Shown here in pieces: positions 13,224 through 61,709 of a stretch of 64,000 nucleotides of DNA. The notes below the pieces were generated by a model. That model was not told where the DNA came from and did not search any database. It was given only the letters and a program-made list of their open reading frames with translations. The position numbers and the translations under genes are program-made. Origin of the DNA: Virgibacillus doumboii (GTDB taxonomy: Bacteria > Bacillota > Bacilli > Bacillales > Amphibacillaceae). Every line of letters starts with the position of its first letter. Position 1 is the stretch's first letter. The DNA lies in assembly GCF_902806455.1 (NCBI RefSeq), contig NZ_CADCWQ010000002.1, forward strand, positions 1-64,000, given 5' to 3'.

Positions 13224-13267
13224 TAAAAAAATGCGCTTCCATCCTTGTAAAAGGACGAAAGCGCATT
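13224..13267 (-). terminator. T-box-controlled terminator of proBA
   Basis: On the minus strand AATGCGCTTTC...GAAGCGCATT forms a strong stem followed by TTTTTTT, 20 bases before proB. The left arm directly follows the T-box sequence, allowing the alternative antiterminator. Confidence 0.9.
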
Positions 13268-13470
13268 GTCTCCGTGGTACCACCTTGATTGATTCTGGAA
13301 TAGTTTCCAGAATCCACTCATAAACCCGTTAACGAAGGGGTTCCGGCTGGGATTTGCCCAACAGTTCAGGGGATAGGTTCAATAGCATTGCAGGTTGTAA
13401 AATCTTTCAGCCGATGAATTCTACTCTCTTTCACCCGAGGACTATTTACTGATTCCCAATCATTACTTTT
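13224..13470 (-). ncRNA. T-box riboswitch, probably proline-specific
   Basis: The minus strand contains the hallmark AAGGTGGTACCACGG (about 13271-13285), which pairs with the CCA end of uncharged tRNA and forms the antiterminator. Upstream are a GAGAGTAG-type stem I base and a run GAACCTATCC, in which CCU (13375-13377) followed by A is a plausible proline specifier codon. The downstream proBA operon supports the proline reading. The 5' end near 13470 is approximate. Low charged tRNA-Pro would permit read-through. Confidence 0.9.
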
Positions 13471-13574
13471 CCCTGTATAAAATTGCAAATTATTGTTTAA
13501 TTATAAATTAGAAAACATTATGAACCAATTTCAGTATTATGTCAATGGGGGACGAGGACTTTTTTTCAGGGGCA

Positions 13575-21486: not shown

Positions 21487-21664
21487 GCGGATTCTCATTC
21501 CGTTATTTGCCAAAAACTCTTCGTTTTTCGCATAGTTATGAATCCTCATTCCGCTATTTACCATTTTCGACTCCAAATTCCGCTGATTATGATAAATAAC
21601 GGACACGATCCGCGTCACCCCTTTTGGAACCGATTTATTGCCATTTAGCGGAATGTGGATCCGC
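21487..21664. repeat. Four-part inverted element, type B, copy 1
   Basis: Four ~22-base units in forward-forward-reverse-reverse order: 21487-21508 (GCGGATTCTCATTCCGTTAT), 21538-21559 (ATGAATCCTCATTCCGCTAT), 21594-21613 (AAATAACGGACACGATCCGC) and 21643-21664 (TTTAGCGGAATGTGGATCCG). Unit 1 can pair with 4 and 2 with 3, forming one long two-stem hairpin. The end context TCGTTGAACCAAT recurs in copy 2. See copy 2 at 22773 and type A copies at 32761, 37261, 48295 and 61529. Confidence 0.85.
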
Positions 21665-21892
21665 ATCGTTGAACCAATACGACTTTTGGAAATTGCGTCT
21701 TCTCCCTTCTTTTGTAGTTGGGTAAAGATTTCTATGTTAATTATTGGGAAATCTTGTCAGCAGTTTTTTGATATGTATTATCCTTTATCTGCTTGATTCA
21801 TATTGTGTTACCATGAAATTAAGATTGTCCGGGTTATCCCATGATATCTTTTTTTTTCAAATTAATAAAATATCAAAAAGGTCGTGAGGAGA

Positions 21893-22615
21893 ATGGAGAA
21901 TAAATTAAAAATAAAAAAGGAAATAAATCAACAAGAAGTTATTTTAGATCTTATTGTAAATGGTACGAATGACTATATATTAAAAACAAAAGAATCTGGT
22001 GAGAAAATAGTTGTCAGGGAACTGGCAAGGAAACGTAAAGCTATTATTCTTTATAAACCTCTTAAGATTGCTGGAGTTATGGTTAAAGAAATTGAAATTA
22101 CAGATGAACAGCTAAACGTAATTGAAGAAATAGAAAAGGAATTTAAGCAAAAAGCAATTGATAGGGATAAACAATCAAAAGAGGATTTAATAAATGGCGT
22201 TACAACAATCAAAGTCAATTATCGCAGTGGAAAGGCGTTAAGCGGGTATATAATTTTTGGGCATGAAGCTGATTTGCTAAAGAGTTTGGGTGTAGCAAAA
22301 GAAATAGGCGGCTGGCGGACGATAGTTGATGAAGAATTGATTGAAGCGTTGGGTGAAGAATTTACATATCAGCAAGCATCCGATTATGCAAAACCGGTAG
22401 TGGAGGAGAGAGAGAAAGAAAAGGCGAAAAAGGAAGCGAAAATAAAAGCAAAAATGGAGGAAGCAAAACGGACCGGTGAAAAGGTTGCCATCAGACGCTG
22501 GCAAGAGAATTGTAACAATTCGAGAAAAGACTGTGATTTGGATAATATGACTGAATACGCATTGCCTGATGGAAAAACAAAAATCGAAAGACGGCATACA
22601 GGATTAAAGGTCTAG
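21893..22615 (+). CDS. Hypothetical protein, lysine-rich, unknown family
   Basis: A 240-residue soluble protein. Residues 1-85 are beta-rich with a regular pattern (VILDLIVNGTNDYILKTKES, then KAIILYKPLKIAGVMVKEIE). Residues 100-165 contain KVNYRSGKALSGYIIFGHEA and EIGGWRTIVDEELIEALGE. Residues 168-205 are a highly charged helix (EEREKEKAKKEAKIKAKM). The tail has two cysteines (NCNNSRKDC). Start is uncertain: ATG 21893 has AAGG 11 bases upstream; GTG 21884 is possible. Lower GC than neighbours, and flanked on both sides by type B four-part repeats, which suggests mobility. I do not recognise it. Confidence 0.7.
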   Translation: MENKLKIKKEINQQEVILDLIVNGTNDYILKTKESGEKIVVRELARKRKAIILYKPLKIAGVMVKEIEITDEQLNVIEEIEKEFKQKAIDRDKQSKEDLINGVTTIKVNYRSGKALSGYIIFGHEADLLKSLGVAKEIGGWRTIVDEELIEALGEEFTYQQASDYAKPVVEEREKEKAKKEAKIKAKMEEAKRTGEKVAIRRWQENCNNSRKDCDLDNMTEYALPDGKTKIERRHTGLKV

Positions 22616-22772: not shown

Positions 22773-22953
22773 GCGGATTCTCATTCCGTTATTTGCCTAA
22801 ATACCTTCGTTTTTCGCATCGATATGAATCCCCATTCCGCTATTTACTACTATACCCCTCATATTAACCCAAACTAGCAGGAATAACGGAACCACGATCC
22901 GCTTAACCCGCTTTGGAACGGCTTTTTGTCCTTTTAGCAGACTGAGGATCCGT
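22773..22953. repeat. Four-part inverted element, type B, copy 2
   Basis: Units at 22773-22794 (GCGGATTCTCATTCCGTTAT), 22824-22845 (ATGAATCCCCATTCCGCTAT), 22881-22902 (AATAACGGAACCACGATCCG) and 22932-22953 (TTTAGCAGACTGAGGATCCG). Same order and almost the same spacing as copy 1, also followed by TCGTTGAACCAAT. Spacers TTCGTTTTTCGCAT and the CCCGCTTTGGAACG-like block are also shared with copy 1. Confidence 0.85.
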
Positions 22954-32708: not shown

Positions 32709-32760
32709 CCAGAGGATATTATTTTTATAATAATGCCTCGCATGGCGGACGAGGCTGCCC

Positions 32761-32939
32761 GGACATATTTTCCGTTATTCATTAAAAAACATGTCTTATG
32801 GGGCGGTTCGCGGACATATTTTCCGTTATTACTCTAAGTTCAACGTAAAAACTGCCTATTTGTGCCGGATAGCGGAACAAATGTCCGCAAGCACCGGTGA
32901 ATCAGCGTTTTAGAACCAAATAGCGGTAAATGTGTCCGC
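32761..32939. repeat. Four-part inverted element, type A, copy 1
   Basis: Units at 32761-32779 (GGACATATTTTCCGTTATT), 32810-32830 (CGGACATATTTTCCGTTATT), 32869-32888 (ATAGCGGAACAAATGTCCGC) and 32918-32939 (AATAGCGGTAAATGTGTCCG): two forward then two reverse copies. It occupies most of the gap between the divergent spoVR and gdhA genes; the rest (32940-33091) holds the gdhA leader with AAGGAGATGACC. Confidence 0.88.
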
Positions 32940-37201: not shown

Positions 37202-37210
37202 TCCGGGCAT

Positions 37211-37241
37211 ATAAAAACGCTTGAACTTCAAGCGTTTTTAT
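37211..37241 (+). terminator. Terminator
   Basis: TAAAAACGCTTGAA pairs with TTCAAGCGTTTTTA around a two-base loop, then TAGTAC. Nearly the same stem (AAAAACGCTTGA) recurs at 48499. Confidence 0.85.
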
Positions 37242-37260
37242 AGTACTTCCCGTTTAGGCT

Positions 37261-37439
37261 GGACATATTTTCCGCTATTTGTCTGAAATAACCCTTATTT
37301 CATGTTTTGGAGGACATATTTTCCTTTAATTGATTAAATCTGCAGCAAATTGATTCACTTTTTGATTGATAACGGAACAGATGTCTGCGAACAGCCTGAA
37401 AATAGTGTTTTATCATTGGATAGCGGAATATATGTCCGC
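37261..37439. repeat. Four-part inverted element, type A, copy 2
   Basis: Units 37261-37280 (GGACATATTTTCCGCTATTT), 37312-37331 (GGACATATTTTCCTTTAATT), 37369-37388 (ATAACGGAACAGATGTCTGC) and 37420-37439 (ATAGCGGAATATATGTCCGC). Same length (179 bp) and order as copy 1. It lies between convergent genes, ending 14 bases before the yhbH stop. Confidence 0.88.
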
Positions 37440-37453
37440 CTGATTTGAACGAT

Positions 37454-48189: not shown

Positions 48190-48294
48190 TTGATAACCTC
48201 CTTATTTTTACTCTAATACTATCATACTGATTTTTTTTGCACATGCATGAATGACGTTTTTTCATGGAACAAGGTGGATCCGGCCGTTTGAAGT

Positions 48295-48473
48295 GGACAT
48301 ATATTCCGTTATTTGCGGCAAATGGAGTGTTTTTTCGCTATTCGCGGACATTTGTTCCGCTAGTCATCCAAAAACCAATACTTTTCGAAGTGAATTATGA
48401 TAATAACGGAATACATGTCCGTGAAGCCATTAATTTCGGTGTGTTTTCAGTTAATAACGGAAAATAAGTCCGC
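48295..48473. repeat. Four-part inverted element, type A, copy 3
   Basis: Units 48295-48314 (GGACATATATTCCGTTATTT), 48344-48363 (GCGGACATTTGTTCCGCTAG), 48402-48421 (AATAACGGAATACATGTCCG) and 48452-48473 (TAATAACGGAAAATAAGTCC). Again 179 bp and forward-forward-reverse-reverse. It fills the rocB/PLA2 gap (48190-48561) with the terminator at 48499. Confidence 0.88.
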
Positions 48474-61528: not shown

Positions 61529-61709
61529 GCAGACATATTTTCCGCTAATCACTCCAAAATCACTGTTTTAGCAGGATTTGCGGACATATTATCCTTTATC
61601 CAGCAATAATCATATGAAAACAGGTTGAACTTGGGGCAATAACGGAAAATATGTCCGCATGTAGGCTGAAATTCACTTGAATGTTAAAAATAAGGGAAAA
61701 TATGTCCGC
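61529..61709. repeat. Four-part inverted element, type A, copy 4
   Basis: Units 61529-61549 (GCAGACATATTTTCCGCTAA), 61580-61600 (GCGGACATATTATCCTTTAT), 61638-61658 (AATAACGGAAAATATGTCCG) and 61689-61709 (AATAAGGGAAAATATGTCCG). Same order and 181-bp span as the other copies. Confidence 0.88.

Follow-up and report, generated by a model that had tools for sequence, protein, structure and literature searches.

A dispersed four-site palindromic element of Virgibacillus doumboii and its relatives, and a candidate nuclease-fold/winged-helix partner protein

The subject of this report is a stretch of 64,000 nucleotides of the Virgibacillus doumboii genome (contig NZ_CADCWQ010000002.1, positions 1 to 64,000; referred to below as the window), in which six gaps between genes hold copies of an element of about 181 bp built of four partially palindromic units. 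On balance it is thought probable that the six copies represent a dispersed four-site element which also stands beside one gene encoding a predicted nuclease-fold/winged-helix protein, and that this protein likely binds the sites and probably drives their spread. The repeat and its partner apparently constitute an unreported system, present in a minority of Bacillus relatives. The first-pass annotation of this DNA, made from the letters alone, had held the layout to be undescribed, and membership in a named family of miniature inverted-repeat transposable elements (MITEs) or repetitive extragenic palindromic sequences (REPs) would have refuted this; no such family turned up, in that no Rfam model matched the element in the window at gathering scores, and no description of the unit strings or of such a system was found among the matches listed in searches of the open literature.

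The four-unit element

A unit profile chained by geometry was run over the whole window and recovered exactly six elements with four units in each, while the reversed window and 40 first-order Markov resamples gave zero elements with the same profile. Each unit is 21 bp long (GCGGA-N6-TTCCGYTATT) and constitutes a partial palindrome, CGGA-N6/7-TCCG; the palindrome is full (AATARCGGAA-N5-TTCCGYTATT) in several Paenibacillus and Cohnella loci. The units follow one another in the order forward-forward-reverse-reverse, and are marked by GGACAT in type A and by GGAT(C/T)C in type B. All six elements of 178-181 bp that had been annotated at first pass were thus found again, with corrected extents, and the two types with different cores under one grammar were confirmed.

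Features of the window (no strand is assigned to an element as a whole):
32759..32939, element 1 (type A), 181 bp; units 32759-32779(+), 32810-32830(+), 32868-32888(-), 32919-32939(-)
37259..37439, element 2 (type A), 181 bp; units 37259-37279(+), 37310-37330(+), 37368-37388(-), 37419-37439(-)
48293..48473, element 3 (type A), 181 bp; units 48293-48313(+), 48344-48364(+), 48402-48422(-), 48453-48473(-)
61529..61709, element 4 (type A), 181 bp; units 61529-61549(+), 61580-61600(+), 61638-61658(-), 61689-61709(-)
21487..21664, element 5 (type B), 178 bp; units 21487-21507(+), 21538-21558(+), 21595-21615(-), 21644-21664(-)
22773..22953, element 6 (type B), 181 bp; units 22773-22793(+), 22824-22844(+), 22882-22902(-), 22933-22953(-); direct-repeat partner of element 5
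21884..22615, + strand, open reading frame (ORF) of 243 amino acids between the two type-B direct repeats, without a Pfam match; a bystander or passenger

Unit starts are separated by steps of 51, 57-58 and 51 bp (the last step is 49 bp at 21487), and unit centres lie 51, 62 and 51 bp apart in five of the six copies (51/61/49 at 21487). Such centre spacings come to approximately 5, 6 and 5 helical turns of about 10.2-10.4 bp each, which would bring the four sites onto one face of the DNA. Alignment of copies along their whole length, spacers included, was found for only a few near-duplicates, for example the type-B pair with 77% identity; the genome of the window (G000) holds tens of copies, and all pairs of the 34 found in the regions fetched have a median identity of 66%, units included.

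Family size and distribution

The geometry is conserved across the Bacillales. In 1.42 Mb of fetched loci the unit profile and the geometry together yielded 220 non-duplicate elements, 187 of which have all four units, and the reversed sequence of this locus set contained no element; totals vary among scans because of differing thresholds and de-duplication. The outer steps measure 50-52 bp in 185/187 and 183/187 complete elements. Many loci were fetched with an exact centre pattern; a bias of the central spacing and of the inner half-sites results from this, but the outer steps and the outer units are free of it. A core-free version of the centre pattern matched in 23 of 397 genomes of the order, belonging to 14 of 135 genera. 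It also matched in named genomes, at 119 or more places, all of them, among the matches listed, from genera of Bacillaceae or Paenibacillaceae type by name (Rossellomorea, Virgibacillus, Lentibacillus, Paenibacillus and Cohnella are included). The wider family, for which a search had been recommended at first pass, thus exists, and its 187 complete elements in the loci fetched all come from Bacillus-like genera. The core-free pattern was matched once in viral contigs, and a blastn search with one element gave zero plasmid matches.

Within the genus the presence of copies is uneven. The gap orthologous to the site at 37259 is empty in 11/11 congeners, and that orthologous to 32759 lacks the element in all six congeners aligned, both alignments being judged by eye. 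Where window 37202-37453 has its orthologous gap, four of the element-free congeners (L229-L231 and L235) hold another repeat; its CGCTATAG-like units recur every ~21 bp, and in two of these four gaps a GTTTCACGTGAAAC palindrome is also seen.

A/T tracts and the probable form of the DNA

The spacers carry runs of A or T which stand in register, at about +17, +28, +68, +79, +90, +130 and +141 from the first unit (70 non-redundant elements). The units had been described at first pass as conserved and evenly placed, which stands, and the spacers as unconserved, which has to be corrected with respect to these tracts. Between 8 and 14 bp the tract spectrum has joint peaks at 10.3 bp (685) and 12.6 bp (691), compared with a rotation null of at most 230 that reached the observed power in 0/300 cases; because the peak is shared by the two periods, phasing at 10 bp rests on the tract positions together with the spectrum. 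The phased A4/T4 vector exceeded the shuffled mean in 47 of 52 elements.

Covariation between units 1 and 4 and between 2 and 3, a check suggested in the first-pass annotation, was not borne out. At three tract pairs 23 strand flips were counted among 66 elements, in no case with a compensating change in the partner run; the four unit cores resemble one another to about the same degree whichever two are paired (six pairings, z 7.9-11.0; pairs 1-4 and 2-3 are no closer than 1-2 and 3-4), and pairing of the spacers equals expectation (0.383 vs 0.378; in the centre 0.291 observed vs 0.338 expected). An RNA hairpin with covarying arms was rejected on these grounds. Uncompensated flips, equal similarity of units and chance-level pairing point to double-stranded DNA, and the element fits curved double-stranded DNA read by one protein better than an RNA or a single-strand hairpin formed across the units.

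The candidate partner gene

When the ORFs in the neighbourhood of elements were clustered (1,448 ORFs, 35 genome groups), one short protein (217 amino acids) stood out, its gene being only 35-61 bp away from an element in four genomes, which represent three genera. Other recurrent neighbours (ABC transporters, short-chain dehydrogenases, sigma factors, subtilases, chemotaxis receptors and aldehyde dehydrogenase) were scanned with Pfam and set aside as generic. A linked DNA-binding protein, which had been proposed as something to look for, thus has a candidate, and in the genome of the window it is placed as follows:
G000:C1:731685-732326, partner gene; a type-A element begins 36 bp behind it

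The protein has no Pfam match above the cut-off and 1,071 homologs at E<=1e-3, mostly named "transcriptional regulator" in the source databases. Gene and element are linked and distributed together. A homolog is present in 50 of the 397 genomes surveyed, that is in 18/23 pattern-positive genomes vs 32/374 others (Fisher 6e-14), with partial or broken homologs among the 18 in G031, G300, G215 and G242; for the close subfamily alone the counts are 14/23 vs 11/374. A close-subfamily gene is present in 25 genomes, and in 22 of these an element was found less than 1.5 kb from it, at a distance of 9-120 bp in 21 and of 312 bp in one; eight of these 22 are negative by the exact pattern, and the element is on the 3' side in 18 and on the 5' side only in four. 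Among 21 loci of the distant subfamily that were scanned, 16 have their best variant element 30-40 bp behind the gene, and the consensus of 20 aligned 3' flanks contains four palindromes with variant arms (in one of the flanks, L386, another repeat comes first).

Gene number is low, with 1-4 matches per genome across the survey, fragments included. In the genus of the window the gene occurs, once in each, only in G000, G009 and G010 of 12 genomes, which are the three in which elements were seen, the nine remaining congeners having been checked for type A elements (and G001 for the core-free pattern as well). Fragmented or stop-containing partner genes were observed in G031, G215 and G209, and G031 keeps elements beside the broken gene. 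No partner homolog was found in phage records, nor any relative among 93 pattern matches in viral contigs; one 2.7-Mb plasmid record carries the protein at 31% identity.

Predicted fold and agreement with unit type

The partner protein is predicted to consist of a domain similar to the homing endonuclease I-Bth0305I (EDxHD/PD-(D/E)XK-like) followed by a C-terminal winged helix of MarR/Zalpha-like type. Residues E58, E60, D72, E85, H92 and R107 are invariant in 25/25 aligned rows. Units were labelled T, C or A according to the base at position -6, and the same unit type is found in gene-adjacent and dispersed elements in 7/7 genomes checked. If the domains are compared separately, the winged helix tracks the unit type. 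A single two-group test of whole-protein identity against the unit letter gave a negative result (pairs with the same letter minus pairs with different letters, -0.019; a value as high was reached in 1930 of 2000 permutations) because the C-type proteins are diverse, and the informative contrast came from splitting the domains; in this test and in the protein tree G043/B. litorisediminis and G235/P. caeni were each entered as separate rows; the protein and unit sequences of G043 and B. litorisediminis are near-identical. Of the two kinds of reader suggested at first pass, related proteins or RNAs, the former is favoured by the linked candidate and by this apparent match, and the latter is not.

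Constraint on units and inheritance of copies

Orthologous places were paired through their flanks between G040 and the close species G151, and the first set left 13 of 32 G040 elements without paired flanks. Units change more slowly than spacers. In 19 orthologous pairs the outer units differ at 35/834 sites (4.2%), about one third of the rate of the spacers (199/1756, 11.3%; p 4e-10), and they also differ less than the flanks (603/7363; p 2e-5). Within the unit GGAC (positions -9 to -6) differs at 1/304 sites, the core N at 33/380, and TTCCGYTA at 6/608, with the reservation that its inner half-sites belonged to the fetching pattern. Together with the nearly constant outer steps, this supports the first-pass opinion that the geometry is selected.

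Where flanks could be paired, 30 of 31 G040 elements have an element at the same place in G151, and the reverse comparison gave 31/31, from which it follows that mobility is rare. The lone disagreement (L317 6703-7934) consists of two direct-repeat elements around an ORF of 236 amino acids, where G151 has a single element (L309 11900-12080) which looks chimeric or recombinant between the two. Direct repeats in the form element-gene-element recur, the type-B pair being the example in the window, and whole elements in head-to-tail arrays with a period of ~192-213 bp were seen at L076, L038, L141, L360 and L357. At L080 and L136 overlapping four-unit calls proved by eye to be arrays of at least five near-palindromic units, so four is the commonest length and others exist. 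Considering the orthologous stability and the recurrent arrays and direct repeats, the copy map is mostly inherited, with local duplication and deletion, and its units are under constraint. Copies lie inside a long ORF in 0/34, 0/44, 0/42 and 1/147 cases in four sets; they are common at 3' ends of genes and in convergent gaps and rare in divergent gaps.

Possible mechanism and alternative explanations

It can be proposed that one dimer of the predicted protein would sit on each palindromic unit and that a single complex would wrap all four centres, which would face the same side of a curved helix at intervals of 5, 6 and 5 turns. The nuclease-type domain might then nick or break the DNA, and repair or recombination would now and then copy the element or duplicate it in tandem, after which the placed copies would be kept by selection as protein-binding sites. 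Spread would then require the partner protein, in analogy to the presumed dependence of REP repeats on a TnpA-REP of their own. A bolder version, to which slightly less than even credence is given, is that of a new repeat-plus-enzyme class: an EDxHD-like nuclease with a winged helix, acting on four phased palindromes of a curved 181-bp scaffold, would seed chromosomal copies and rewrite the repeat code of the genome by exchanging or changing its winged helix, as a double-stranded-DNA, nuclease-based counterpart of the REPtron that evolved independently in the Bacillales.

Several observations weigh against the main explanation. No instance was seen of a bare element moving to a new place, as the 30/31 agreement between G040 and G151 illustrates. 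Close-subfamily genes in G179, G341 and G049 have no element beside them by profile, and five pattern-positive genomes (G079, G104, G228, G240 and G243) have no homolog, G104 with as many as 13 pattern matches. Distant homologs alone are weakly correlated with the pattern (4/23 vs 21/374, p 0.048), and their single-element scores of 27-33 of 40 barely exceed the control maximum of 27, for which reason the case for the distant subfamily rests on position and alignment. Foldseek alone gave no match at E<=1e-3. The R/K rule that relates the winged helix to unit type is not universal, since A-type G096 also has K, and H. okhensis, within a T clade of a tree with unsettled bootstrap, has E instead. 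G000 has five T-type elements in the regions examined, yet its single gene is C-type. In G040 and G151 the element beside the first gene has a divergent right arm unlike the dispersed units, whereas that beside the second gene does match them.

The stability just mentioned and the slow change of units would be expected if the protein were a domesticated chromosome-architecture or regulatory factor, wrapping four sites near gene ends in order to organise or insulate DNA, with a nuclease-like domain now structural and copies that arose by old chance duplication and were kept for function. The avoidance of ORFs, the rarity in divergent gaps, the frequency at 3' ends and the distribution of homologs (none in phage records or viral contigs, one plasmid record) also suit such a role. 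It is nevertheless judged rather unlikely, as the patchy presence inside one genus, the lack of the element in the orthologous gaps of congeners at both window sites compared, and the invariant acidic and histidine residues of the nuclease domain favour a role in recombination. An ordinary MITE with an unrelated and unseen transposase, the partner gene being a chance neighbour, appears quite improbable. The element is indeed short, non-coding and dispersed with inverted-repeat ends (outer units 1 and 4), and TA stands outside both ends in 27/161 non-redundant elements vs 12 expected if independent, which could be a TA duplication; in some unit types, however, TA is itself a part of the palindromic arm, and no target duplication above 2 bp stands out in the same set, where 10-bp flanks match at eight or more positions in 13/161 elements, at least three of which are in tandem arrays. 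In V. litoralis (G010, L184 1340-1738) a T-type four-part copy does lie inside a MITE of 399 bp (terminal inverted repeats of 26 bp) and is missing from the orthologous V. subterraneus site, but the flanks of this MITE match none of the G000 loci compared. Moreover, gene linkage in 22/25 genomes is beyond chance, and the match of unit type with the gene and its winged helix would be left unexplained. Least probable, and hardly to be credited, is an RNA element (attenuator, stabiliser or guide RNA) with units 1-4 and 2-3 paired: the overall dyad symmetry and the position near 3' ends would suit it, but the spacer pairing, the flips and the unit-core similarities described above and the missing Rfam match in the window speak against it.

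Comparison with known systems

MITEs such as pneumococcal RUP and the B. cereus bcr elements are short, non-coding and dispersed, with inverted symmetry. The present element shares these traits and the terminal inverted repeats; it differs, RUP and bcr being compared by description, in that no clear target duplication was found beyond the possible TA one, and in its four-site architecture, unit-specific constraint and the class of the linked protein. With its inverted ends and the possible TA duplication, it may still belong among the MITEs. In the ParB/parS, MatP/matS and Noc systems one DNA-binding protein serves many dispersed palindromic sites, as is predicted here, whereas the composite 181-bp four-site element, the genome-specific site code, the sporadic distribution and the nuclease-type domain are differences, again by description.

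The closest parallel is found in REPtrons, which comprise many palindromic intergenic repeats and a mostly single-copy gene with adjoining repeats, gene presence being tied to the repeats and protein and repeat co-evolving (PMC8266576; for the organisation also PMC3733652). Dispersed palindromic intergenic repeats, a mostly single-copy gene beside a copy, correlated presence and matched variation are common to both. In contrast, what is predicted for the linked protein is an EDxHD/PD-(D/E)XK-like nuclease joined to a winged helix and not an HuH/Y1 enzyme, and four sites at fixed spacing with in-register A/T tracts take the place of single-stranded DNA hairpins with GTAG. No GTAG/CGTC consensus was present at unit edges in the column table of 70 elements, where the flank reads YTATT, and Pfam gave no Y1 match for the linked protein, although the genomes were not surveyed separately for Y1 genes. 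Membership among REPtrons is excluded because the protein class differs and GTAG is missing, and the DNA-level evidence, from the spacers and from pairs 1-4 and 2-3, points away from hairpins of the REP kind. I-Bth0305I, described as a dimer on a target of nearly 60 bp (PMC3943268), resembles the partner in the predicted fold of the catalytic domain; unlike it, the partner gene is free-standing, has no match in phage or viral collections, is tied to a dispersed repeat and encodes a predicted C-terminal MarR/Zalpha-like winged helix.

The dispersal and persistence of short palindromic repeats are an open question even for REPs (PMC8266576). With a repeat, a candidate enzyme, matched variation across genomes and candidate specificity residues in hand, the dispersal question becomes directly testable in Bacillales. 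A family of 1,071 homologs would gain a candidate target and a candidate enzyme class, and there would be one more example of a nucleoprotein architecture with four sites on curved DNA.

Additional observations

A candidate for an autonomous, gene-bearing copy (L156 5180-6776; G000:C1:935189-936775), with its forward pair and reverse pair 1.46 kb apart, was discarded, as the insert interrupts the central spacer of an ordinary copy; this insert has two ORFs and is presumably an IS3/IS150-type insertion sequence. Related copies of the 399-bp MITE of V. litoralis G010 are present in the same genome. In the window the sole Rfam match at gathering scores is a T-box leader RNA at 13248-13472 on the - strand (RF00230, 96.2 bits).
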